Source: a virus
Direction: 5' to 3' (one strand)
Length of the DNA stretch: 25,237 nucleotides
IMG/VR virus record: IMGVR_UViG_3300035670_008542
Span: 1 to 25,237 of that record
Both the position numbers and the translations under genes were made by a program. This document shows positions 593 to 14,220 of this stretch, piece by piece; position 1 is the first letter of the stretch; each line of letters begins with the position of its first letter. The notes beneath the pieces were generated by a model, which was given only the letters and a program-made list of their open reading frames with translations, was not told the DNA's origin and did no database searches.

Positions 593-1288
593 ATGGATGT
601 GTTGATTGGAAGCACCGGCCTGATTGGCGGCATTCTCCAGGAACATCAGCAGTTCAACCATTTGTACAATTCCAGCAATTTATATCGTGCTTCGTTGTTA
701 AGCGGCACGATTGACAAGTTGTATTTGGCTTGTCTTCCGGCGGAGAAATGGAAGGCCAATCAAGATCCGGCGAAAGATTTTTTCAACATGCAAGAAATTG
801 CAGCCGCTATTCGCCCTTGGGAAGTGAAGGAAATTATTCTCTATTCCACCATTGATATTTATAAGCATTCTTTTGGCAATTTGGACTATGGGCGCGTAAG
901 GCGCATTTTTGAACTGCTTGTGAAAGCAATGTTTCCAAATAGCGTTGTAAAAATCATTCGCCTTCCCGCATTGTTCCACAAGCGCATTAAAAAGAACGTC
1001 TTGTTTGATTTGTTGAACAATAATAATGTTGAACAAATTAATGGCAATTCTGCCTACCAGTGGTACGATTTAAACGATTTGTGGCAAGATACACTGGCGG
1101 TTAAAGAGGCTGGCATTTACGATTTATTTTCCGAGCCTATTGAAACGCAGGAAATTCTTGATCGTTTCTTTCCCGAGGCTAAAGTGAGTTATGGCTCCCG
1201 TATTAACTATCATTGCGGGAGTTATAAATACGGCAAAGAAGAAATGCTTGCGAAAATGGAGGCGTTTATCAATGCTTATCGGAATTAG
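593..1288 (+). CDS. short NAD-dependent epimerase/dehydratase-like protein (Rossmann fold)
   Basis: The 231-residue protein begins with a Rossmann dinucleotide-binding loop, IGSTGLIGG (residues 5-13), typical of extended short-chain dehydrogenases such as NAD-dependent sugar epimerases and dehydratases. A second family feature is the strand YSTIDIY (84-90), placed like the catalytic Ser/Thr strand, followed by a Tyr at 99 in the pattern Y-x3-R; the usual pattern is Y-x3-K. At 231 residues it is shorter than typical sugar epimerases (about 300). It could act on a nucleotide sugar or be a non-catalytic relative. It starts two bases after the head gene and its end overlaps the next gene by 17 bases, suggesting translational coupling. 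The fold is well supported; the substrate is unknown. Confidence 0.65.
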   Translation: MDVLIGSTGLIGGILQEHQQFNHLYNSSNLYRASLLSGTIDKLYLACLPAEKWKANQDPAKDFFNMQEIAAAIRPWEVKEIILYSTIDIYKHSFGNLDYGRVRRIFELLVKAMFPNSVVKIIRLPALFHKRIKKNVLFDLLNNNNVEQINGNSAYQWYDLNDLWQDTLAVKEAGIYDLFSEPIETQEILDRFFPEAKVSYGSRINYHCGSYKYGKEEMLAKMEAFINAYRN

Positions 1289-2015
1289 TGCGATTGGCTG
1301 GGAGCCAGAGCAGGAGGAACAAATTTTAAGCGCCAATGCTGGCGCTTTTAATCTGTTGGAGATTGTTCCTCATCGAGTGTTTCAGCAGCGCCTTGACTAT
1401 GCAGACTTAGCAAAGAAATATAGGGAAGAATATGGTCTGTGGGCATACTCTGCTCAGGCTTTATTTTTTGGGAGTGATGTGCAAAGTTTTGAGGACACTG
1501 AGGCCACTCAAGAGCATTTATTGCGCGTTGTCAAACTGGGTTCTTTTATGGGAATCAAGCGTTTTGTGCTTGGCAGTCCTGCCCTCCGACGCGGAAGCCC
1601 AGCGTGCTTAATGAACGTGCTTCGGCGCATGGACAAAATCTTGGAAGCCAACGATGCCATTTTATGCATTGAACCAGTGGCAAGAACTTTTGGCGGCAAA
1701 TATTTTCACACAGTGGGAGAAATTGTCAATTTAATTGACTATTACAATTTGAAAAATGTCAAGACCATGCTTGATACCAACAACGCGTGGCTAGAGGGTG
1801 ATAGTCCCAAGAAGATACTGGGACATTATCTTCCTTACATTGCTCACGTGCATATCAGCGACACTGACAATGGACCGCTGTTAAATAAATATGAGCACGA
1901 GCAGGTTAGGGCGATGCTGGGTATGCATGGTTACCAGCTAGGCATCATTCGCGAGCTTTTTAAAGCCAAAAACCATCTTCGCGAATATCCATTGTTTAGG
2001 CAAATTTATGCTTGA
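1272..2015 (+). CDS. xylose isomerase-like TIM-barrel sugar isomerase/epimerase
   Basis: A 247-residue protein of the sugar phosphate isomerase/epimerase (AP endonuclease family 2, xylose isomerase-like) type. Likely metal and catalytic residues lie on successive barrel strands: Glu134 in LCIEPVAR, Asp168 in MLDTNNAW, His192/His194 with Asp197 in HVHISDTDNG, and Glu228 in GIIRELF. Families of this fold interconvert keto and aldo sugars or epimerise them. I chose ATG 1272 rather than the in-frame ATG at 1191 because GGAGG lies at 1258-1262, nine bases ahead, and because the extra 27 residues of the longer form are basic and unlike the family. It overlaps the epimerase-like gene by 17 bases and converges on the minus-strand FAD gene with a 10-base overlap of 3' ends. 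The substrate is not readable from sequence. Confidence 0.7.
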   Translation: MLIGISAIGWEPEQEEQILSANAGAFNLLEIVPHRVFQQRLDYADLAKKYREEYGLWAYSAQALFFGSDVQSFEDTEATQEHLLRVVKLGSFMGIKRFVLGSPALRRGSPACLMNVLRRMDKILEANDAILCIEPVARTFGGKYFHTVGEIVNLIDYYNLKNVKTMLDTNNAWLEGDSPKKILGHYLPYIAHVHISDTDNGPLLNKYEHEQVRAMLGMHGYQLGIIRELFKAKNHLREYPLFRQIYA

Positions 2016-2980
2016 TCAATGATTGATTGCACGTGATTTTTAATGGCATAGATGCCTTGAATTTTGCCCGTAAAAATGGAAATAAAATTATCACGCCGGC
2101 GATAAACGGGCATGCGATTGGCGCTCCTGTCTTTAATTTTGGCCTTGGTGGAACAAACTGGGGCTACAGGTCTTAGATATAAATTAAAGTCTGGCCAATA
2201 TTGCCTTGCGTGATCCTCCATTTTTAAGCGATGGAGATTGTAATCGTGATCATCATAATTATCAATCGGACAAGCGCTTTGTGACAAAACGCCATGCTTC
2301 ACATGGCTCAAGGACATCAGCCCTTCGCCATAGGGATAGAGGGAGAATAGTTCTCCGTCAATGTAAGTGAGTGCGCCAAAAGGGAGAGGACGTTCAATGG
2401 TATAGAGCATCATCATGACGCGCTCAAAGAAGCAATTCTCTTCTGGCTCTAAAAGAAAGTTGTTAGTGCAATCAAGCACTAAATCATAATCTTGTTGCAA
2501 AAACTGCACTTCATTCGCAACTATTTCTTCATGAACGACAAATGGCGAAAGAAGGGCTTGAAAATATTCTCCCGCCAATAAAGGGTTGATGAATTTTTCT
2601 GGCGTGGCAATGGCGCAGGAAGTGTTGTCTAGCCACGGTGCGTAAACCACGCGATGTGGCCATTCATCAAAAATTGTCAAAATTGTCGTGTCATCCAATA
2701 AGCTCTCATCTTGCGAAACAGCGTACAGATTGTCCGCAATGTCTTCAACAAGATGGCCGTAGTCTTTCAAGAACGCGTGAAAGGTGGTACGGCACAATTG
2801 ACGAGTGCGTCCATTGCGTGCATAGTGATAGCCATAGTGCAAACGATTTTGATTGATCAGCGATGCTTCGCTAATCAAATGATCATTGCGCTCGTAAATC
2901 GTAATGTTGTGTTCTTTGCTGAACTCTTTGGCTAAGTGGCAGCCCACCCAGCCGCCTCCAATGATGGCAATATTTTTCAT
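2006..2980 (-). CDS. FAD-dependent oxidoreductase (DAO-like fold)
   Basis: This 324-residue protein opens with an FAD/NAD-binding beta-alpha-beta unit: IIGGGWVG at residues 6-13, with an acidic residue at the end of strand two (IYERN, Glu30). Residues 43-56, NQNRLHYGYHYARN, resemble a conserved motif (NQARxHxGYHYPRS) that I know from FAD oxidoreductases often found near polysaccharide genes. The C-terminal part ends in FTGKIQGIYAIKNH, as in flavoproteins whose last strand contacts the cofactor. Its start overlaps the stop of the upstream minus-strand gene as TAATG, so the two are one translationally coupled transcript. A role in oxidising or rearranging a sugar or amino-sugar precursor is inference from context; the flavin-binding fold is well supported. 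Confidence 0.7.
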   Translation of the reverse strand: MKNIAIIGGGWVGCHLAKEFSKEHNITIYERNDHLISEASLINQNRLHYGYHYARNGRTRQLCRTTFHAFLKDYGHLVEDIADNLYAVSQDESLLDDTTILTIFDEWPHRVVYAPWLDNTSCAIATPEKFINPLLAGEYFQALLSPFVVHEEIVANEVQFLQQDYDLVLDCTNNFLLEPEENCFFERVMMMLYTIERPLPFGALTYIDGELFSLYPYGEGLMSLSHVKHGVLSQSACPIDNYDDHDYNLHRLKMEDHARQYWPDFNLYLRPVAPVCSTKAKIKDRSANRMPVYRRRDNFISIFTGKIQGIYAIKNHVQSIIDQA

Positions 2981-3678
2981 TAGATGTCAAGACAAAGAAC
3001 TGGCTGCACGCCTTGCCAATTGCTTTTGGCTTTATAGAGGTCTAACTGAGGAAAATATTCAATGCGACGGGCGAAGCCGGTGCCATATGCGTCTGAATGA
3101 CCTTGATAGTTCCATTCGTCGGGACCATGGCGATCAGGATGGTAAACGTGAGTGGGCGCGTCGTTTAGTTTCCAGAGCATGTAGTCCTCATTCGGCACCC
3201 CCCATTGCTTCCACCTTTGCAGGGCCTCAGGCGAGCAGTCCGTGTTTCGGATGGCCATCAGGCGGTCTTTGTGGCGCAGGAGGTAGTCCATGCGATACAG
3301 GCCAATGCTCATTGATGGCGTGCCCTTGAGGGCCACTTTCTCTGGACTGTCTACTGGCAACGACAAGGCAAGTTCGTAAAACAAGGGACCAGCGATGCAG
3401 GTGTCGTGCAGAAGGAACCAATAGTCGCTGTGGATGTTGTTATCGACAATTTCAATGAGAGGAGTGTATTCAAAAGAGTTCTGCGGCGTCAAAAGCATTG
3501 GTACGCCTTCGTAGTCCGTAATGGTCAGGGAGTCTTCCCATCCACCATTGACAATCAAAATATGCTCTTTGGCAATGCCGTTTTGGAGCAGGGAAGGAAC
3601 GATCACCTGTAGTGTATGCGCTGCAAATTTTTGGCAAGTGCTAATGCAGAAGCGCATTGAAGCTGGTGATAGTCGCAT
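2980..3678 (-). CDS. GT-A-like protein, probable glycosyltransferase
   Basis: A 232-residue protein first in a two-gene minus-strand unit. The layout resembles a GT-A glycosyltransferase: an N-terminal alpha/beta region with LIVNGGWED (about residue 40), then SDYWFLLHDTC (about residues 84-94), where the HD may take the place of the DxD metal site, then SMSIGLYRMDYLL (122-134). I cannot place it in a named family with certainty. The start at 3678 is supported by AGGAG on the minus strand seven bases ahead of the ATG; a second in-frame Met is residue 8. A TATACT hexamer lies a little further upstream. Its stop overlaps the FAD oxidoreductase start (TAATG). Its neighbours on both sides are sugar genes, which is the main reason for the functional call. 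Confidence 0.5.
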   Translation of the reverse strand: MRLSPASMRFCISTCQKFAAHTLQVIVPSLLQNGIAKEHILIVNGGWEDSLTITDYEGVPMLLTPQNSFEYTPLIEIVDNNIHSDYWFLLHDTCIAGPLFYELALSLPVDSPEKVALKGTPSMSIGLYRMDYLLRHKDRLMAIRNTDCSPEALQRWKQWGVPNEDYMLWKLNDAPTHVYHPDRHGPDEWNYQGHSDAYGTGFARRIEYFPQLDLYKAKSNWQGVQPVLCLDI

Positions 3679-3740
3679 GGTTCGTCTCCTGCGCCCATAG
3701 TATAAACGCGGCTTATGATGGCGAAGATTCTTGTTTTGTC
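3679..3740. promoter_or_regulatory. divergent intergenic region with back-to-back -10-like elements
   Basis: These 62 bases separate the minus-strand pair from the GT4 gene and must hold any promoter for the minus-strand unit. On the minus strand TATACT (complement of 3699-3704) is a good -10-like hexamer, about 20 bases ahead of the start codon, and AGGAG supplies a ribosome site. On the plus strand TATAAA at 3701-3706 overlaps it and could serve the GT4 gene. I see no convincing -35 hexamer for either. The region also holds a near-copy of the GT4 start, ATGGCGAAGATTCT at 3718. Confidence 0.35.
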
Positions 3741-4958
3741 ATGGCAAAAATTCTGTATTGCGGCGATGCTTTTGTCGAAACTGGCTTTGGCCGTGTGGCG
3801 GAAAACCTGCTTCCAGCCTTAGCTGAGCATCACGAAGTGAGCGTGTTGGCCGTTAACTACCATGGCGATCCAGACAAAGAAGCTCGTAAATACGACACTT
3901 ACCCGGCGATGCTGCATGGCTCCGATCCATTTGGCTCCCATCGCATTGGAGAGCTAGTGCAAAAGATCAAGCCAGATTTGGTGTGGGTGACCAATGACAT
4001 TTGGATAGGCATCAGTTTGTGGAAGGCTGTCAAGGCTTTTAAAGAAAGCATCGGCTTTAAATTCTTTGTGTACACGCCGATTGACAGCTACGGCTTATTT
4101 CCCGAACTGTTGGAGCCTATTAACGAATGGGACGGCGTGGCCACTTATACGGAGTTTGGCGCCGAGGAGCTTCGCAAGATTGGTTATGAAAAGCCAATTG
4201 GCATTATGGGGCACGGCACAGATTTCACCAAGTTTTTCCCGATGGACAAGGCCGAATGCCGAAAAAAACTGGGCGTACCGCCGGATGTTTTCATTGTTTT
4301 CAATGGCAATAGGAATCAGCCCCGTAAACGCATTGACTTAACCATTAAGGGCTTTATCAAATTCGCGAAGGATAAGCCCGATGCAAGGCTATGGCTCAAT
4401 ATGGGCAGCAAAGATATGGGGTGGGATTTGATCCCGTTATTTAAGCGCGTAGCGAGAGACGAAGGCTATGACCCAACCGGCAAGCTTATTTTGACGAGCC
4501 CAAGCTTCTCGACGGCCAACTGCCTCACTATTGAGCAGCTCAACATGGTCTATAACGCCTCGGACGTTGGCATCAACACTTGCATTGGAGAAGGCTGGGG
4601 CCTGGTCAACACTGAACATGCAGCAACTGGCGTGGCTCAGTTGGTGCCAGATCACACAAGCTGCAAGGAGATTTTTAATGGCGTGCCGCGCATTGACATT
4701 GAAAGCTGGGAAGTGGACAGGAATTATGGCCTGGATCGTGGCCAGCCATCGCCAGATCATTTAGCCGAATTGCTCACAATGTATTACGAAGATCGAGAGC
4801 AATTAAAGGCTGATGGCGAATGGTGCAAACAGCGCATTGAAGAATTCACTTGGCCTGGTATTACGCAACAAATGCTGGACCAAGTGGAGGCAGTTTTGGC
4901 CATGGACCCAGAAGAGTCTGAATTCAAGGGCTTTGGCACTCCCGCAAAAATCGATTGA
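3741..4958 (+). CDS. GT4-type glycosyltransferase (GT-B fold)
   Basis: A 405-residue GT-B glycosyltransferase. The N-terminal acceptor domain starts MAKILYCGDAFVETGFGRVA, typical of GT4 enzymes that bind the acceptor through a Gly-rich loop. The C-terminal nucleotide-sugar domain has GNRNQPRKRIDL (188-200), with basic residues that contact donor phosphate, and the E-x7-E signature EGWGLVNTE (284-292). Both are characteristic of retaining GT4 enzymes. I chose ATG 3741 rather than the in-frame ATG 3657, because the longer form would overlap the minus-strand start and adds 28 atypical residues. No strong ribosome site precedes it. The next gene begins at its stop as TGATG. It likely adds a sugar to a host glycan or virion target; the substrate is unknown. 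Confidence 0.85.
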   Translation: MAKILYCGDAFVETGFGRVAENLLPALAEHHEVSVLAVNYHGDPDKEARKYDTYPAMLHGSDPFGSHRIGELVQKIKPDLVWVTNDIWIGISLWKAVKAFKESIGFKFFVYTPIDSYGLFPELLEPINEWDGVATYTEFGAEELRKIGYEKPIGIMGHGTDFTKFFPMDKAECRKKLGVPPDVFIVFNGNRNQPRKRIDLTIKGFIKFAKDKPDARLWLNMGSKDMGWDLIPLFKRVARDEGYDPTGKLILTSPSFSTANCLTIEQLNMVYNASDVGINTCIGEGWGLVNTEHAATGVAQLVPDHTSCKEIFNGVPRIDIESWEVDRNYGLDRGQPSPDHLAELLTMYYEDREQLKADGEWCKQRIEEFTWPGITQQMLDQVEAVLAMDPEESEFKGFGTPAKID

Positions 4959-5680
4959 TGGTCATGCAGATTTCTCAAATTTTTCTAACCACTGATCCAG
5001 AAGAAAAGCTTTCTCCTTTTCTTCAATATGCCACTGGCACCATTGATACAGTGTTTCCTAAGGCCAACCATGTAATTTACAACAATGAGCAACTCCGTGA
5101 TTTCATTGCTTCTGTTTATGGTGGGCACGTTTTATGGGCTTACGATTCGCTACGTCCTTTTTCGTATAAAGCTGATCTTGGGCGCTTCTGTCTCCTCAAT
5201 CATTTTGGCGGCTGGTATTTCGACATTGCTATTCGGGCTGTTAATGCTGTGGACGTGGGAGATCGCATTAAATTTTTAGCCTTCCGTGATATCCAGCGAT
5301 TTAGCTACACGAGTTGGGCTTGTGCTACCACTGTTTTATATTCTCAGCCCAACAATGAGGCTCTGCAAACTGCCATTGAAATGATTGTGGCCAATTGCGT
5401 GGAACAATACTATGGCATTACGCCATTGTGTCCCACTGGCCCCACGCTTCTTGGCAAGGCTTTGGCATGCAACGGAAGCCAGGCAGATTTTGTTTATGGC
5501 GATTATTTAGAACTGACACCCACGCACGAGCAGAAGAACAGGGCGTTTGTGCTTCCCGATGGCACTATCATGGCGTGGAGCAAGCCAGCCGGAGGCGGCG
5601 ACCTCACTGGACTAGGCGCTAAGAGCGTCAACAACTACAACGAACTATGGGCTGCGAGGCAAGTGTATGAAACCGTCTGA
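4958..5680 (+). CDS. GT32-like glycosyltransferase (DXD sugar-binding type), motif altered
   Basis: About 240 residues. The central stretch SYKADLGRFCLLNHFGGWYF (residues 69-88) is the hallmark of the GT32 / DXD sugar-binding family, whose consensus is KaDllR followed by GGxYxDxD. Here the metal-binding motif reads FDIAI, so the first Asp (89) is kept but the second is replaced by Ala. A downstream PTGPTLLGKAL (about residue 160) also fits the family. The ATG at 4958 forms TGATG with the preceding stop; a TTG at 4955 and an ATG at 4964 are alternatives. It ends 14 bases inside the next gene. The enzyme may use a relaxed metal site or be impaired; family membership looks sound, activity does not follow automatically. 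Confidence 0.7.
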   Translation: MVMQISQIFLTTDPEEKLSPFLQYATGTIDTVFPKANHVIYNNEQLRDFIASVYGGHVLWAYDSLRPFSYKADLGRFCLLNHFGGWYFDIAIRAVNAVDVGDRIKFLAFRDIQRFSYTSWACATTVLYSQPNNEALQTAIEMIVANCVEQYYGITPLCPTGPTLLGKALACNGSQADFVYGDYLELTPTHEQKNRAFVLPDGTIMAWSKPAGGGDLTGLGAKSVNNYNELWAARQVYETV

Positions 5681-6383
5681 TTACACCATCTATGCAGTGT
5701 GCATTCAAAACGAAAAAGTTCGTTACGAAGCGCAATCAAAAATTGTCCCGATCATGGGCGGGGCGTGGAATATTGTTGATGCGGAACGTAGGGCTCTGCG
5801 AGAGCAAGGCTATGTATTTGACGATGAAGGAGCGTTTCTTTCCTCTTTAAATAGGCGATGGGGAGAGCTATCTTGTGTGCATTGGATGCTACTGAACGCT
5901 GAAGAAGCAAACATTGGCAATGCTCAGTATCGCCGGAATTGGATAGAGCCTAAGTCTGGATGGTATGCAGAGAACGTGCTTTACGTGCCAGAGCCGGCTG
6001 TATTTACTTGCACTTTGGAGCAGCAGTTCTATGGCGGGCATTCAGAGTTTGATGCTCCCGCTATCACTCGCGAACTTGCTGATACTGGCGCCTGGGCATT
6101 CACGCGAGAAGAGATTGACAAATTATGGGCGCAAAATTTATTTATTGGCTGCAATATGGCTCGCGGTCCGAAGCAATATTACAAACAATTTATGACCACT
6201 TTATTTGTTTGTTTATTGCCTATTTGGGAAAAGCATAAAGAACATTTTCTCTCCATTGAAGGTTATGACAAACGGGCCTTAGCCTTTATTGCCGAACGCT
6301 TGTTGACTGGTCTGGTTTTGTATCGCGATAAATTCTTTCCTGGCATGACCATTGAAACAGCGCCGATAGGATTTATTCATTGA
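5667..6383 (+). CDS. DUF4422-type capsular polysaccharide / glycosyltransferase protein
   Basis: 238 residues that follow the DUF4422 plan, a family found in capsular and O-antigen loci. Family-like stretches are VPIMGGAW (27-34), DDEGAFLSSLNRRWGELSCV (52-71; family form is DDxGxNISxxNxxxxELT), AQYRRNW (86-92; usually HYRR), and the C-terminal GYDKRALAFIAERLLTGLVL, which matches the xxRxxGFLxERLL end of the family. GCNM at about residue 167 fits the middle block. The start ATG overlaps the GT32-like gene by 14 bases, preceded by GCGAGGC. It closes the cassette; the small DUF6496 gene starts 26 bases later. Transfer of a sugar is inferred from family context. Confidence 0.7.
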   Translation: MKPSDYTIYAVCIQNEKVRYEAQSKIVPIMGGAWNIVDAERRALREQGYVFDDEGAFLSSLNRRWGELSCVHWMLLNAEEANIGNAQYRRNWIEPKSGWYAENVLYVPEPAVFTCTLEQQFYGGHSEFDAPAITRELADTGAWAFTREEIDKLWAQNLFIGCNMARGPKQYYKQFMTTLFVCLLPIWEKHKEHFLSIEGYDKRALAFIAERLLTGLVLYRDKFFPGMTIETAPIGFIH

Positions 6384-6409: not shown

Positions 6410-6691
6410 ATGACCAAGAAAGAAAAACAGGCCAAAGTGGCGAAGGTGATGCGTGAGTTTAAAGCTGGCACGCTGAAAGGTAGCGATAAAAAGCCTGTAA
6501 AGAATCGCAAGCAGGCCATTGCAATTGCTCTCTCCGAAGCCGGCATGAGCCGCCAAGGCAAGAGTGATGAATACTGGGACAACTATTTCATGACCCTCAT
6601 TGGAGAAGAGGAAGAGGGAGAAGAAGAGGAAAAGGAAGAAGAGGAAGTGGAGGATGCTTCTTGCGGAAAAAAGCATCGCGGGGGGATGTAG
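6410..6691 (+). CDS. small DUF6496-like protein with acidic tail (zero-frame product)
   Basis: 93 residues. Residues 7-50 match the DUF6496 pattern seen in many phage and bacterial small basic proteins: KVAKVMREFKAG, then KNRKQAIAIALSEAGMSR. The rest is an extremely acidic run of Glu (66-82) ending in CGKKHRGGM. I place the start at ATG 6410, ten bases after AGGAAAG (6393-6399); a TTG at 6380 and ATG at 6386 are in frame but lack this. The stop at 6689-6691 lies just past an A-AAA-AAG heptamer, and the following ORF is in the -1 frame, so this is probably the short form of a frameshifted pair. The function is unknown; a basic head plus acidic tail would suit binding to nucleic acid or head proteins. 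Confidence 0.7.
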   Translation: MTKKEKQAKVAKVMREFKAGTLKGSDKKPVKNRKQAIAIALSEAGMSRQGKSDEYWDNYFMTLIGEEEEGEEEEKEEEEVEDASCGKKHRGGM

Positions 6692-7026
6692 AAAGCTTCT
6701 CCCCTCCTGCTGGCGTTAGAAGCGCCGCTCGCCGTGGTTTAGAGCTTCGCAAGAAGCACGGCAAAGGCGGCTTAACTACGCAGGAAGCTGGCAAGCAAGG
6801 CATTGGCAGCGGCGTGGCTCGCGCCAGTGATTTAGCTGGTGGAGGAGCCGTGAGCTTTGCCACGATTAAACGCATGGCCGCATTCTTTTCTCGTCATGAG
6901 AAAAACAAGAGCGGAGGGGAAGATGATGCTGGTTATATTGCTTGGCTGCTATGGGGAGGCGATGCCGGTAGGTCTTGGGCAAATCGCATCATTAAGATGG
7001 TAGAAAATCGTCAAAAGGACCAATGA
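6410..7026 (+). CDS. predicted -1 frameshift fusion: DUF6496-like domain, acidic linker, RGLELRKKH domain
   Basis: Predicted join of 6410-6673 with 6673-7026, giving about 205 residues: 88 from the zero frame, then 117 from the -1 frame. The A-AAA-AAG heptamer at 6667-6673 is in the zero-frame phase needed for -1 slippage. The downstream domain (SAARRGLELRKKHGKGG, GIGSGVARASDLA, TIKRMAAFFSRHE, AWLLWGGDAGRSWA) is a recognisable recurring phage domain, but I cannot name it. It lacks an ATG or GTG; its only candidate start is TTG 6661, with GGAGG at 6649-6653 seven bases ahead, so independent initiation is the main alternative and would give 121 residues. A single-base sequence error in the A run is another alternative, though the RNA structure argues against it. 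Confidence 0.55.
6667..6706 (+). promoter_or_regulatory. -1 ribosomal frameshift signal: slippery heptamer plus stem-loop
   Basis: A-AAA-AAG lies at 6667-6673 in the phase of the DUF6496 frame, the same heptamer used in bacterial dnaX. After a six-base spacer (CATCGC), GGGGGGA (6680-6686) can pair with TCCCCTC (6700-6706), giving seven pairs with one G-U around a 13-base loop. An SD-like GGAGG at 6649-6653 lies 13 bases upstream of the heptamer, comparable to the stimulator in dnaX. All three elements are seen in the sequence; frameshifting itself is inferred. Confidence 0.6.
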
Positions 7027-7331
7027 GCGAATATGTGCGCGTCATCGAAGAAGAAGACGAAGGCATTGGTCTTTTGAAGGCATTAGCCATTCTTTCTGCA
7101 AATGAACATCGCAACACTTCACAGTGGGAACTGGTGGAAAAGCAATGCTTTAAGAATGGGCGGCTAGACGAAACCCATATTTATGTGATGAGCGTCTACG
7201 AGAAGCCCGACCTGCATTTTGAGCCGACAAAGTTTCTCACGTTTGAAATTGAAGCCATGGCCAAGGCTTACATTATGGAAGGCATTGAAAGCCAGCTCAG
7301 CGAGCTTCGCGGAGAGGATGACGAAGACTAG
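7023..7331 (+). CDS. hypothetical acidic phage protein
   Basis: 102 residues, rich in Glu and Asp at both ends (VIEEEDEG near the start, RGEDDED at the end). I do not recognise a family. The ATG overlaps the preceding stop as ATGA, so it is coupled to the frameshift product, and its last four bases overlap the 3' end of the minus-strand XRE gene. The middle contains alternating hydrophobic stretches (THIYVMSVYE, FLTFEIEAMAKAYIM) that could form a small alpha/beta fold. Its position between a sugar cassette and the prohead protease suggests an accessory or head-associated role, but nothing in the protein proves it. Confidence 0.6.
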   Translation: MSEYVRVIEEEDEGIGLLKALAILSANEHRNTSQWELVEKQCFKNGRLDETHIYVMSVYEKPDLHFEPTKFLTFEIEAMAKAYIMEGIESQLSELRGEDDED

Positions 7332-7609
7332 TGTCGCGTGTGAGCGATGAACGATGGGTAGCCCATTAGCCACAACACGCTAATTCCATAGAGACCGCTA
7401 AGGGTGCGAATTTGTACGCAGTCTGGCGGCACTGTGGCGCGTTCAATGCGTGAATAGGAGCTTTGGCTGATGTGGAGAATTTCAGCCACGTCCTTCTGAG
7501 AAAGCCCGCTGTTAAGGCGGGCTTCTTTAATGCGCTCGGCAATGAGCAGGCGGGCCTGTTGATGCGGCATTTTAAGAACGTCCGTGCTGCTCTTCGCCAG
7601 AAACATCAT
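7328..7609 (-). CDS. XRE-family helix-turn-helix regulator, antisense within the late region
   Basis: The C-terminal 80 residues hold a clear HTH_XRE domain: ERIKEARLNSGLSQKDVAEI, then SQSSYSRIERATVPPD as recognition helix and following loop, then LYGISVLWLMG. The frame stays open far upstream, but I place the start at ATG 7609/7606 (93 or 92 residues) or ATG 7570 (80 residues); longer versions run antisense into the protease gene. No good ribosome site supports any one of them. The protein is the size of a single-domain repressor with no dimerisation or cleavage domain. It faces away from the protease gene across a 63-base gap and converges on the preceding gene. It may repress its own promoter and perhaps the protease-side promoter; that is inference. 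Confidence 0.75.
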   Translation of the reverse strand: MMFLAKSSTDVLKMPHQQARLLIAERIKEARLNSGLSQKDVAEILHISQSSYSRIERATVPPDCVQIRTLSGLYGISVLWLMGYPSFIAHTRH

Positions 7610-7672
7610 GCCGCTAGTCGAAATTGAATAGGCTTTTTTATTGTAATAACAAATTTTTGGTAAAGTATAAGC
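7610..7672. promoter_or_regulatory. divergent intergenic region between XRE gene and protease gene
   Basis: This AT-rich 63-base gap contains TACAAT on the minus strand (complement of 7640-7645), a good -10-like hexamer about 30 bases before the XRE start, and TATAAG at 7666-7671 on the plus strand, which is too close to the protease ATG at 7673 to be its ordinary promoter. A small inverted repeat TTGT-AATA-ACAA (7641-7652) overlaps the minus-strand -10 and could be an XRE operator. The half-sites are only four bases, so this is weak. Confidence 0.3.
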
Positions 7673-8869
7673 ATGAGCACCATTTCTTGTCGATACGATT
7701 TCTCGCCAATTGAGAAATACGAAATGACGCCAGAAGGCTATCTTCGGGCGTGGGCTTCGATTGCTCGCACTGGCATTCAGCTCTACACAGACGCTGATGG
7801 CTCCGTGCGGCGAGAGTATCGTCCAGAAACAGAAGTGGCGTCTCCCGAGAGTCTTGCTTCGTTTGCGGGCAAGGCAATCACTTCGGAACATCCCCCTGTT
7901 CTTCTTGATGCTGACAACACTAAAGACTACCAAGTGGGCTTTAGCGGCACTGAGATTGTCTATGACAATGGTTTCGTCAAGGCCGTGATGACAATCACGG
8001 ACAAAGATGCCATTGAACGGATTATGCGGGGAGATGCTCGTGAGGTAAGCGCTGGCTACAGGGTGAATTATGATCCCACGCCTGGCGTTACAGAAAGTGG
8101 CGAAAATTACGATGGCATCCAAAAGGAGATCATCGGCAATCACATCGCTATTGTTCGTCGGGGCCGCGCTGGCCCGCAAGTGAAGCTCCATCTTGATCGC
8201 CAAGATGCAGCCGATCTATCTTTATTCTCTACTACAGGAGACCATCTAATGACTGCAAAAGTCGTTTTCGATGGCGCCGAGTTTGAGGTGACGGAGAGCG
8301 TTGCTCTTGCGATCACCAAAGAACGTGAAGACGCCAAAATGTCCTATGAGGACATGAAGAAAAAATACGACGAGCTGCAGGCCGCTGCTGATTCCATGAA
8401 GTCCGAAATGGATGCCATGGAAAAGGAAATGAAAGGGAAAATGGATGCTGCCGAAGGCCGCGCCGACGCCCTGGCCGAGCACGTTGAAGAACTGAAAGGC
8501 GAACTGGCTGCCGCCAAGGAAATCAATCTTGATTCCATGGTTGAAGAGCGTCTTGCTCTGATTGAAAAGGCTAAGCCTGTTCTGGATGCCGCTTATGAAT
8601 TTAGCGGCAAGGAAGCCCGCGAGGTGATGGTGGACGCCATCAAAGCCGTGCGTGGCGATAGCGTTGATCTGGCTGAAAAGTCTGATGACTATGTTCAAGC
8701 CATGTTTGACACCCTGGCTGAATCGTCCCGCGATGATTCTGTTGCCACTGATGAGCTGCGTAAAGCCGTAGCTTCCATTGCTTCCCCCATGAGCGCACCG
8801 TCTTCCTACATGGAAACGCTGCAAAACGCATGGAAGAAGCCCCTCTCCATCTCTAAGGAGGCTAAGTAA
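7673..8869 (+). CDS. prohead protease (DUF2213-type) fused to scaffold
   Basis: 398 residues. Residues 1-175 match the DUF2213 prohead protease type: TSEHPPV (His73), EVSAGYRV (Ser126), YDGIQKEIIGNHIAIVRRGR (about 146-165, with His157) and the closing GRAGPQVKL. His73, Ser126 and perhaps His157 are the likely catalytic set, by analogy with prohead serine proteases. Residues about 210-285 are a Lys/Glu/Met-rich coiled coil (SYEDMKKKYDELQAAADSMK onwards), as expected of a capsid scaffold, and the C-terminal part (about 290-398) is helical. The protein would assemble inside the procapsid, direct shell formation, then digest the scaffold. Start ATG 7673 has no strong ribosome site, unlike the internal start at 8249. 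Confidence 0.8.
   Translation: MSTISCRYDFSPIEKYEMTPEGYLRAWASIARTGIQLYTDADGSVRREYRPETEVASPESLASFAGKAITSEHPPVLLDADNTKDYQVGFSGTEIVYDNGFVKAVMTITDKDAIERIMRGDAREVSAGYRVNYDPTPGVTESGENYDGIQKEIIGNHIAIVRRGRAGPQVKLHLDRQDAADLSLFSTTGDHLMTAKVVFDGAEFEVTESVALAITKEREDAKMSYEDMKKKYDELQAAADSMKSEMDAMEKEMKGKMDAAEGRADALAEHVEELKGELAAAKEINLDSMVEERLALIEKAKPVLDAAYEFSGKEAREVMVDAIKAVRGDSVDLAEKSDDYVQAMFDTLAESSRDDSVATDELRKAVASIASPMSAPSSYMETLQNAWKKPLSISKEAK
8236..8251 (+). promoter_or_regulatory. ribosome-binding site and internal start for the scaffold
   Basis: AGGAG at 8236-8240 lies eight bases ahead of an in-frame ATG at 8249-8251, inside the protease gene. It is stronger than any site ahead of the full-length start at 7673. 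It falls exactly at the boundary between the protease domain and the coiled coil. Confidence 0.6.
8249..8869 (+). CDS. nested in-frame scaffold protein
   Basis: Predicted 206-residue product from the internal ATG at residue 193 of the protease-scaffold gene. It begins MTAKVVFDGAEFEV, then the coiled coil and helical C-terminus, and lacks all protease motifs. Lambda uses the same design (Nu3 inside C), where extra scaffold is made in excess of protease. The evidence is the well-spaced AGGAG, the domain boundary, and the weak upstream start of the full gene. It ends with AAGGAGG, which serves the decoration gene. The scaffold role is inferred from position and coiled-coil content. Confidence 0.55.
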   Translation: MTAKVVFDGAEFEVTESVALAITKEREDAKMSYEDMKKKYDELQAAADSMKSEMDAMEKEMKGKMDAAEGRADALAEHVEELKGELAAAKEINLDSMVEERLALIEKAKPVLDAAYEFSGKEAREVMVDAIKAVRGDSVDLAEKSDDYVQAMFDTLAESSRDDSVATDELRKAVASIASPMSAPSSYMETLQNAWKKPLSISKEAK

Positions 8870-8871
8870 TT

Positions 8872-9432
8872 ATGGCCGTTTCTTTCTCCACCTCGGGCAC
8901 TGCCTCCGCTGGTGGCGTGCAGCAGGCTTATGCCCTGACTCACACCGCCTATCTGGAAGGTGGTCTGTCTGACATCCGCGACAACACCATCTCCACCTGC
9001 GTTAACGAAACCGGCGCTGTTGTGCCTTTCGGTGACCTCGTGGTCTATAACAACGCCGGCACTGTTGCCAACTCTGCCGTTACCATCTCTGGTGCTTCTG
9101 ACACCGTGCTGGGCATCAACGCTCTCACCTATGTGGACGAGACCGCCGAAGACGCCAATGGCCGTCCTGGCGTGAAGAACCAGCAAGCCATGAACGTGGT
9201 GAACGAAGGTGCTGTGGCCGTCTACGTGACCGGCGCCGTCACCCCCAAGTCTGTGGTTCGCGTGCTGTATTCGGCAAGCGGCACTGGCAAGGCTGGCCAG
9301 TTCTCGCATGCTTTCGCCTCGGGCAAAACTGTCCGTCTGGCCAACGCTCGTTTCCTCACCTCCACCACTAGCAGCGGCATTGCCCTGCTGGAGCTGAATG
9401 GTCCGAGCTTCACCCTCTCTGCTGATTCTTGA
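8872..9432 (+). CDS. head decoration / capsid stabilising protein
   Basis: 186 residues of small, beta-rich sequence (many Gly, Ala, Ser, Thr, Val; no Trp and few charged residues), directly ahead of the major capsid gene, the usual place of a decoration or head-stabilising protein. Stretches such as GDLVVYNNAGTVANSAVTIS and GAVAVYVTGAVTPKSVVRVL look like repeated strands of a beta barrel. I do not assign a named family. The start at 8872 follows AAGGAGG (8855-8861) by ten bases. Third codon positions are strongly C-rich, as in the capsid gene, consistent with a high-copy product. It is separated from the capsid gene by 15 bases that contain that gene's ribosome site. Confidence 0.65.
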   Translation: MAVSFSTSGTASAGGVQQAYALTHTAYLEGGLSDIRDNTISTCVNETGAVVPFGDLVVYNNAGTVANSAVTISGASDTVLGINALTYVDETAEDANGRPGVKNQQAMNVVNEGAVAVYVTGAVTPKSVVRVLYSASGTGKAGQFSHAFASGKTVRLANARFLTSTTSSGIALLELNGPSFTLSADS

Positions 9433-9447
9433 TAGGAGGCCCTACCA

Positions 9448-10350
9448 ATGTCTGAATTCCGTATGGATGAAGCGGGTCTGTTTCTTGAGCGTCAGCTTGA
9501 GTTCATCCGCCCCCAAGTGTTTGAAGTGCAGTATGCGGATATCAAATATCCGACTGTGCTGCCCGTAACTTCTGAAGCCGGTCCTGGCGCTCAGACCTTC
9601 ACCTACCGCATCATGGATGCCACTGGTGAGTTCAAGCTGATCGCTGATGCTGCTGATGATCTGCCCCGTGCCGACATCAGTCAGACCGAGAAAAGCATCA
9701 ACATCCGTTCCTTCGGCGGCAGCTTCGGCTACACCGTGCAGGAACTGCGTGCTGCTCAAATGGCCAACATCGCCCTGGAGCAGCGTCGCGCTGCTGCTGT
9801 GCGTCGTGCCTACGAAGAGAAAGTGGAAGACCTCGCTTTCTTCGGTGAGAGCACCGTGGGTCTGTCTGGCTTCTTCAACAACTCCACCGTGGATGTGGTG
9901 GCCGCTGACAAGTGGTTCAGCACCGCCACTGCTCAGGAAATGCTGGAGCTGCTGAACTATGGCGTGACCGCCATTATCAACGCCTCCAAGATGAAGGAGC
10001 AGCCCGACACCATTCTGATGGCGTGGGAAGATTACAACAAGGTGAGCACCACCCGGAACTCCGATTCTTCGGACGTGACCGTGCTGGAGTATTTCCTGCG
10101 TACCAACCCCTTCATCCGCAATGTTGAGCCCATCAACCAACTGGATGCCGATAACAGCGCTCTGAACACCAACCGCATGGTGGTGTACAAGCGTGATCCT
10201 GAGAAAGTGCAACTGCACATCCCTCAGCCCCTGGAGCTGTTCCCCCCTCAGCAGCGCGGTCTGGAATTCATCGTTCCCGCCCATGCTCGCGTTGGTGGCG
10301 TGGCCCTGTACTATCCCAAGAGCGTTATCTACGTTCAGGCCAACGCCTGA
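9448..10350 (+). CDS. major capsid protein (DUF2184 type)
   Basis: 300 residues. Family-like stretches of the DUF2184 capsid group are visible: FTYRIMDATGEFKLIADAAD (50-69), GSFGYTVQELRAAQMANIAL (91-110), RRAYEEKVEDLAFFGES followed by GLSGFFNNS (the Gly-Leu-x-Gly-Phe-x-Asn block), and PAHARVGGVALYYPKSVIYV near the C-terminus. These proteins take the HK97 capsid fold. No long N-terminal delta-like region is present, which fits a separate scaffold. AGGAGG (9434-9439) sits eight bases ahead of the ATG. Codon choice (CTG, ACC, GGC, CGT) is typical of a highly expressed gene and differs from flanking genes. Confidence 0.85.
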   Translation: MSEFRMDEAGLFLERQLEFIRPQVFEVQYADIKYPTVLPVTSEAGPGAQTFTYRIMDATGEFKLIADAADDLPRADISQTEKSINIRSFGGSFGYTVQELRAAQMANIALEQRRAAAVRRAYEEKVEDLAFFGESTVGLSGFFNNSTVDVVAADKWFSTATAQEMLELLNYGVTAIINASKMKEQPDTILMAWEDYNKVSTTRNSDSSDVTVLEYFLRTNPFIRNVEPINQLDADNSALNTNRMVVYKRDPEKVQLHIPQPLELFPPQQRGLEFIVPAHARVGGVALYYPKSVIYVQANA

Positions 10351-13021: not shown

Positions 13022-13281
13022 AAATTGATTATTTGTGGAGCGACGATAAAACTGTTCACGCAATCAATAACACCATAGAGGGCACAGCGTTGGAGGCCGG
13101 TATTCTGTGTCTTATTTCCTGCAGGGAAGAGGCTGTTAGACTTTCTAACGAAAATCATTCAATGCTGGTTGAAATTCCTAAGGAATTTCGCTCTTCCAAT
13201 GAACGAGTGAAAGTCTTCAACGCATTGTTAAACGTCTTGGACCATGAGCAAATACAGCTTCCTGCTTCAAACCAAAGCTGA
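13018..13281 (+). CDS. hypothetical small protein
   Basis: 87 residues without a family I recognise. Visible parts: KIDYLWSDDKTVHAINN, ALEAGILCLISCREEA, VKVFNALLNVLDHEQIQLPA. The gene is supported by the ATGA overlap with the preceding gene and the continuous coding style. It overlaps the chaperone gene by 38 bases in another frame, which is unusual for this compact but orderly region. A role in tail assembly is possible from context only. Confidence 0.5.
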   Translation: MKIDYLWSDDKTVHAINNTIEGTALEAGILCLISCREEAVRLSNENHSMLVEIPKEFRSSNERVKVFNALLNVLDHEQIQLPASNQS

Positions 13282-13780
13282 AGATTATTTTGAACTTCTC
13301 CCAGAGCTTCGCCTGAAGAAATATGGCGGTTGGCTGGTTGCAGAGGCCATTGAGCAGGAAGAAATTAGCAAGTTGCAAAGCCAGGCCACCATCCGGGCCG
13401 TGCAGCTTGCAAAGCGTATTGCCACTGCCAAGGATATCCCCTTGGACGAGGCATTTGGTCTCTTGCAAGGTGGTGGCGGCTCAATCACCGAAGCTGAACT
13501 GCTTTCCGAATATACTGAAGAAACCTTGAGCATGATTACCAGTGGCTCGTCGGTGGAGAGTACTAACGCTCGTATGGTTACTGCCTTTATTCGTTCTCGC
13601 GGGCAAGGTCTCGTTGATGGGAATTGGCAAGACCTCGACGACTGGGAGTTGGAAGATACAAAAAATCTCCCCCGTAAATACGTTGCAAAAGTAGTGGAGT
13701 TTATCACTGCAGAGCAAAGCGCCGAAACCCAGGAGGCTGCAACGGCAAAAAAAGCAACGAAGAGGAATTCTCCTCAATAG
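13244..13780 (+). CDS. tail assembly chaperone, short form (G-like)
   Basis: 178 residues directly upstream of the tape measure, the position of lambda G. The protein is charged and helical (LRLKKYGGWLVAEAIEQEEI, ATIRAVQLAKRIATAK), and ends with a Lys/Ala tail, ATAKKATKRNSPQ. Chaperones of this class coat the tape measure while the tube polymerises. The stop at 13778-13780 lies 27 bases past an A-AAA-AAA heptamer, so most ribosomes would make this form and a minority the GT-like extended form. No strong ribosome site is visible ahead of 13244. Confidence 0.7.
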   Translation: MSKYSFLLQTKAEDYFELLPELRLKKYGGWLVAEAIEQEEISKLQSQATIRAVQLAKRIATAKDIPLDEAFGLLQGGGGSITEAELLSEYTEETLSMITSGSSVESTNARMVTAFIRSRGQGLVDGNWQDLDDWELEDTKNLPRKYVAKVVEFITAEQSAETQEAATAKKATKRNSPQ

Positions 13781-14220
13781 CTGAAGCGACAGAGGCGCGA
13801 GCTAGAAAACAACTTAAAAATTTAACTAATTGGGACGAAATTTACTTTCGCCTTTCGGCGTCAGACTTTCGTGATCCAAGATGGCACGCTGATCAATTTG
13901 GACGGCAGCGATTAAGGGATGTTCAGTGTGCATTGAAATATTTGGACAAGCATGACATTGCAAAATACAACGTGCAAAGCATTGCCATTGCAAAGTTTGG
14001 CACGATGACAGCAGCGATGATCGGCGGCAAGAAGTCTAAAGTGAAGCCAGAAGACTTCTTACCGTTTGACGCTAAGGCGTTGAAGAAAGATAGTGGCTTG
14101 ACAGACGAAAGCTTGATTGTTTTCCAACGCTTAATGAAGACAAGAAAGATGGACGGGCGAGTGATTGCTTTGCTGGCGGATGAATTAAAAGCTTTCGCCG
14201 GACGTAATCAAGATCAATGA
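13244..14220 (+). CDS. tail assembly chaperone, -1 frameshift extended form (GT-like)
   Basis: Predicted join of 13244-13753 with 13753-14220, about 325 residues. In the -1 frame the sequence stays open from 13678 to the stop at 14220, and after the slip reads SNEEEFSSIAEATEARARKQ, NWDEIYFRLSASDFRDPRW, then the KYLDKHDIAKYN and FLPFDAKALKK parts. It has no ATG or GTG ahead of a TTG at 13933, so it cannot easily be made alone. The G/GT frameshift arrangement before the tape measure is conserved in long-tailed phages. In lambda the extension binds tail tube subunits while the G part binds the tape measure. Confidence 0.7.
13747..13775 (+). promoter_or_regulatory. -1 ribosomal frameshift signal of the tail chaperone
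   Basis: Seven A at 13747-13753 read A-AAA-AAA in the phase of the G-like frame. After eight bases, GAGGA (13762-13766) pairs with TCCTC (13771-13775) around ATTC. The -1 frame leads into the extended chaperone frame. Sequence elements are seen directly; use is inferred from the conserved arrangement in other phages. Confidence 0.7.

Follow-up and report, generated by a model that had tools for sequence, protein, structure and literature searches.

A predicted −1 ribosomal frameshift joins DUF6496 to a second domain in the head-gene region of S-CBS4-like cyanophages

Frameshifting is known from several phage structural genes, including gene 10 of T7 and T3, the major head protein of Lactobacillus phage A2 and the capsid protein of Listeria phage PSA (PMC5009743). 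The gene pair analysed here is similar to these in that a head-region gene is predicted to yield a C-terminally extended form by recoding, and similar to lambda G/GT in that a −1 shift is placed near the end of a small virion-assembly gene. With respect to the signals, it resembles Escherichia coli dnaX, with which it shares the heptamer, a hairpin about 5–6 nt downstream and, in the window, an SD-like GGAGG. The window is the whole stretch of DNA that was analysed, 25,237 bases of an IMG/VR virus record, and its source phage is close to Synechococcus phage S-CBS4 (major capsid proteins 87.8% identical). Genes gp018 and gp019 of S-CBS4 are the same pair, with the same heptamer, spacer and stem as the window, but are annotated without recoding as two separate hypothetical proteins, gp019 beginning at a GTG.

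The pair is located between a block of sugar-related genes and the DUF2213 head maturation protease. The features referred to below are as follows, with the basis for the assignments or the position in the gene order given in brackets.

6410–6691, plus strand: 0-frame ORF, DUF6496 and a Glu-rich acidic tail, 93 aa, the predicted short product (sequence, Pfam PF20106)
6649–6653, plus strand: GGAGG, SD-like, 13 nt before the heptamer, a putative optional 5′ stimulator (sequence)
6667–6673, plus strand: candidate slippery heptamer A AAA AAG in the 0 frame (sequence; heptamer kept in relatives)
6673–7026, plus strand: −1 frame, second domain (phrog_2859-like, domain 2), 117 codons, stop TGA 7024–7026 (sequence, profile match, dN/dS, structure model)
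6679–6705, plus strand: predicted 3′ stem-loop, arms 6679–6686 and 6698–6705, 11-nt loop (MFE fold, covariation, pairing, codon choice)
7673–8869, plus strand: DUF2213 head maturation protease (profile matches)
8872–9432: cement-like protein (after the DUF2213 protease)
9448–10350: major capsid protein (after the cement-like protein; a gene separate from the DUF6496/domain 2 pair)

The sugar-related block (593–6383) contains Gly_transf_sug, DUF4422, glycosyltransferase-like and epimerase/oxidoreductase-like ORFs, partly on the minus strand, and sits between early head genes and the head protease; glycosyltransferase and methyltransferase genes are found in the same place in S-CBS4. A minus-strand ORF (7328–8203) with a helix-turn-helix-like repressor segment also lies amid the head genes, and the matching place in S-CBS4 is occupied by gp021, a minus-strand "transcriptional regulator".

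The DUF6496 ORF runs from ATG 6410 to TAG 6689–6691, and its residues 4–44 reach the Pfam threshold for PF20106 with 33.6 bits against a gathering cut-off of 24. As the initial annotation had proposed, the −1 frame continues for 117 codons through a recognisable phage domain: it is open to position 7026 and matches phrog_2859 significantly (E 2.9e-16). Protein residues 97–200 align to positions 163–266 of the 740 in the profile, so that a single domain of the profile is covered. The size foreseen for the fusion product is likewise recovered, since 88 residues of the 0 frame and 117 of the −1 frame give a predicted 205 aa. On comparative-genomic grounds, we consider it very probable that the DUF6496/domain 2 pair is expressed through −1 programmed ribosomal frameshifting. 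This prediction is strongly supported by the signal and its in-phase position, by the absence of any other conserved start and by the preservation of the fused product by selection.

Both the sequence and the ORF coordinates agree with the earlier observation that an A-AAA-AAG at 6667–6673, in phase (X_XXY_YYZ) with ATG 6410, lies near the end of the DUF6496 ORF, which ends just after it. AAAAAAG as a plain word is not rare, with 7 occurrences in the window against 11.8 expected, and the main plus-strand ORFs of the window contain 24 in-phase X_XXY_YYZ heptamers. Only two of these 24 lie less than 30 nt from the stop and are followed by more than 60 open −1 codons, namely 6667–6673 and one heptamer in a tail gene pair. 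Judged by conservation in relatives, the placement of the former is beyond what chance would be expected to give. The tail heptamer, A AAA AAA at 13747–13753, lies 27 nt ahead of the stop, has 155 open −1 codons and belongs to a plus-strand pair (13244–13780 and 13756–14220) directly before the tape measure gene, where it probably marks a tail chaperone frameshift of the lambda G/GT kind; S-CBS4 gp032 and gp033 represent this pair as separate annotations, with an A7 near the end of gp032.

Relatives were gathered by three protein scans of IMG/VR, which gave 238 viral loci with 130 distinct junctions. Of these junctions, 95 place domain 2 in the −1 frame, 29 join it in frame to DUF6496, and 2 have it displaced by an indel; the "+1" junctions of loci L191 and L212 and the broken locus L239 look like single-copy indels in standard loci and were not counted as exceptions. 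For comparison of the signals, the protein motif RGD..PP, and not the heptamer, was used to anchor 82 distinct shifted junction fragments, of which two are single-indel copies. An X_XXY_YYZ heptamer is present in 81 of the 82, the exception being an indel copy, and the type is AAAAAAG in 72, GGGAAAG in 6 (L160, L172, L185, L193, L199 and L061) and CCCAAAG in 3 (L177, L235 and L238). Where the heptamer has been swapped, spacer and stem are unchanged, and the spacer between heptamer and stem is 5 nt in all 82. A 0-frame stop follows 0 or 1 codon past the heptamer in 80 of the 82. Unlike nearly all relatives, the window is without a 0-frame stop directly after the heptamer. Positions 6674–6679 read CATCGC instead of CGCTGA, so that the predicted short product gains four residues over the usual length and its stop falls within the stem-loop. 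A DNA-pattern scan found the full signal in at least 120 stretches. The dN/dS values in relatives, 0.044 for domain 2 and 0.135 for DUF6496, indicate that purifying selection is strong on both reading frames.

The SD-like element behaves differently. The GGAGG reported 13 bases upstream is indeed present at 6649–6653, and the same word with the same spacing occurs in 28 of 132 distinct cores; 35 of the 132 have no match of 4 nt or more, the position varies, and no universal SD-like element was found among these cores. The proposal of a complete dnaX-like signal set therefore applies to the window, where the predicted set is complete, and not to the family, this element being its weakest part.

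In the MFE fold of the window, 6680–6686 pair with 6698–6704, which corresponds to pairs 2–8 of the stem (GGGGGGA/UCUCCCC), and the register conserved across relatives pairs 6679–6686 with 6698–6705, with the 8-bp consensus AGGGGNGA/UNYCCCCU. The initial annotation had described a seven-pair stem with the correct 5′ arm (6680–6686) and a 3′ arm at 6700–6706, the latter a second possible register in the window; this corresponds to a slide of +2, for which 69.4% of cells pair across relatives. Among 45 distinct stems, 97.8% of cells pair in the conserved register compared with 58–71% when the register is slid; at 0.199, the covariation score exceeds all 500 shuffles (mean 0.112) as well as all slides. 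All eight pairs form in 72 of the 82 shifted junctions, and at least seven in every one. The codons overlapping the stem deviate from those used elsewhere in domain 2: Arg is AGG in 44 of 45 cases compared with 14% elsewhere, Ser is TCC in 22 of 24 compared with 3%, and Ala is GCC in 19 of 19 compared with 25%. Codon choice is bent to the stem.

Pair 6 of the stem is C-G in 37 cases, A-U in 30, U-G in 7, and G-C and G-U in 1 each (Fisher p 5e-16). Its partners are the third (wobble) base of a Gly codon and the first base of a Ser or Ala codon, which switch in step. Because kinship among sequences inflates plain covariation counts, this pair was retested on the tree, where 11 changes are seen on each side. 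Over five independent tree pairs on supported branches, a number with which a p of 0.05 is out of reach, joint change occurs in 4.8 of 5 on average, all five show the same direction under most pairings, and change in the opposite direction never occurs. Two-sided change is restricted to this one pair; the others are nearly invariant because protein and stem both fix them.

As the initial annotation had suggested looking for, natural fusions of the two domains exist, and they provide a control for the signals. About 28 relatives encode both domains as one ORF, after exclusion of L049, which carries an extra A that may be a base error. These homologues are without the in-phase heptamer, and in the small control set of 14 the stem is fully paired in only 2 and the Arg codon, being free, is AGG in 7. 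The recoded and fused states interchange about nine times on the domain 2 tree, at least four of these on well supported branches. Since fused relatives keep the protein but not the signals, the comparison indicates that the fused product is what selection preserves, with the signals kept only where they would be required for making it. In 80 loci drawn with a distant-relative profile, a frameshifted domain 2 was not found outside the DUF6496 family; there the domain either begins at its own start or forms part of a longer ORF. The frameshift arrangement thus looks specific to the DUF6496 family. A search for close relatives in bacterial genomes found none.

The S-CBS4 annotation implies two separate proteins, in which case translation of domain 2 would begin at TTG 6661 or at an internal start, through re-initiation or coupling. 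The claim that the −1 frame has no ATG or GTG start is correct for the stretch before the domain, but it left TTG 6661 unmentioned, the only start-like codon upstream of domain 2 in this frame of the window, which could act as a weak start. Furthermore, 41 of the 130 distinct junctions have an ATG, GTG or TTG in the open stretch, more distant domain 2 relatives begin at their own start, and a GTG has been assigned to gp019. Most relatives nevertheless offer no such codon: between the last −1 stop and domain 2, ATG, GTG and TTG are all missing in 89 of the 130 junctions, none of seven start codons is present in 22, and in some relatives the −1 frame is stopped within 4–5 codons upstream of the domain. 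Because of these figures, and because the position of the gp019 start is a GTG in only 41 of 132 cases, separate initiation is unlikely; it would also leave the in-phase heptamer, the fixed spacer, the covarying stem and the domain fusion in homologues unexplained. We regard translation of domain 2 from its own start as highly improbable and reject it by comparison with relatives. The −1 frame of S-CBS4 encodes a tryptic peptide, GDAEGFAPPASVR, that begins upstream of the annotated gp019 start.

The heptamer raises the question of whether the frame is changed already at the level of transcription, with RNA polymerase adding or dropping an A in the A6–A7 run so that part of the mRNA encodes the fusion. 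Transcriptional slippage is known on long A runs, the usual length being roughly 8–9 A, and the A6 run is shorter. Runs of 9 are mentioned for polymerase slippage (PMC5009743). Slippage by the polymerase is unlikely because GGGAAAG and CCCAAAG, which have no run longer than three or four, serve at the same place in some relatives. In addition, an RNA stem on the 3′ side with a spacing of 5 nt is a signal for the ribosome. Comparison with relatives leads us to reject this explanation also, with a probability that we put even below that of separate initiation. That the pair is a single gene broken by mutation or by a sequencing error in the A run gains some credit from the natural in-frame fusions, of which L049 with its extra A could be such an event or error, but it is refuted by conservation: the frame relation is common to over a hundred distinct contigs, both frames have low dN/dS, and non-A heptamers occur. 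Its probability is negligible. The frameshift reading of the initial annotation is supported, and none of the three checks run on it refuted it: the family has no conserved own start for the second domain, conservation of heptamer and stem extends from close relatives to more distant ones, and well over a hundred distinct contigs, together with strong purifying selection on both frames, exclude a base error in the A run.

According to the frameshift mechanism that we propose, most ribosomes would start at ATG 6410, read DUF6496 and the acidic linker, and stop at TAG 6689 to release the 93-aa protein. In a fraction of the ribosomes, tRNA-Lys in the P and A sites on A AAA AAG would slip back by one base while the GC-rich stem-loop 5–6 nt downstream holds the ribosome, perhaps helped in the window by the upstream GGAGG. 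The shifted ribosomes would then read 117 more codons, giving the 205-aa DUF6496-linker-domain-2 protein. Slippage would presumably occur at a fixed ratio.

Domain 2 is predicted to be all-helical (model pLDDT 89.5). Among solved structures, none stands out for the fusion model or for domain 2 alone (best Z 4.6–4.7; Foldseek E > 0.7), and a PDB sequence search gave no match; matches among the viral models of BFVD include phage prohead protease, XkdF and portal proteins. A polyprotein of S-CBS1 and of a Roseobacter phage, which also contains prohead serine protease and HK97 capsid protein, has domain 2 at its N-terminus, and Vibrio and Limnohabitans phages have it at the start of a protein whose gene is the third one before the capsid gene. 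DUF6496 also occurs alone, for example as a 51-aa protein next to a portal gene. A role in prohead assembly is suggested because domain 2 heads protease-capsid polyproteins elsewhere, and because of the viral-model matches and the occurrence of DUF6496 near a portal gene. It is conceivable, and we offer it tentatively, that frameshifting sets the ratio of the short to the long product and that both cooperate in assembling the prohead, alongside the protease and capsid protein.

In a wider perspective, we lean towards regarding the pair as a previously undescribed case of recoding that is common among uncultured S-CBS4-like cyanophages. The ribosome would set the proportion of DUF6496 carriers that receive a prohead-assembly domain, one that other phages incorporate in the protease-capsid polyprotein, with repeated switching between recoded and fused states and among three heptamers. 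If this is true, the family offers a natural experiment on the reasons for which frameshifting persists in phages: with matched lineages with and without recoding, the purpose of the frameshift, product ratio or tolerated route to fusion, becomes directly testable. The exchange of AAAAAAG for GGGAAAG or CCCAAAG at a fixed stem would be useful for slippage rules in cyanobacteria. Moreover, the current annotation splits the gene into two hypothetical genes and probably places the second start wrongly.

The locus would add a conserved −1 frameshift gene to the tailed-phage head module, outside the major capsid protein. It differs in this from the T7 gp10 and A2 type, since the DUF6496/domain 2 gene is not that of the major capsid protein and the extension is not Ig-like. 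Unlike the extensions in T7, A2 and PSA, it consists of a helical domain that is elsewhere part of protease-capsid polyproteins. Lambda G/GT precedes the tape measure gene, whereas the DUF6496/domain 2 pair precedes the DUF2213 head protease, which places it outside that type as well. As for dnaX, the shift there gives the shorter product, whereas the shift here would give the longer product with the second domain; in addition, the SD-like element is not universal in this family, and some relatives use GGGAAAG or CCCAAAG. The literature searched on DUF6496, the S-CBS4 genes and cyanophage frameshifts, with most subscription papers outside reach, holds no description of the pair, in agreement with the initial annotation, which knew of no described frameshift in it. 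The mechanism thus appears to be the ordinary bacterial −1 frameshift, already known from these systems, and the gene pair that uses it appears to be new.
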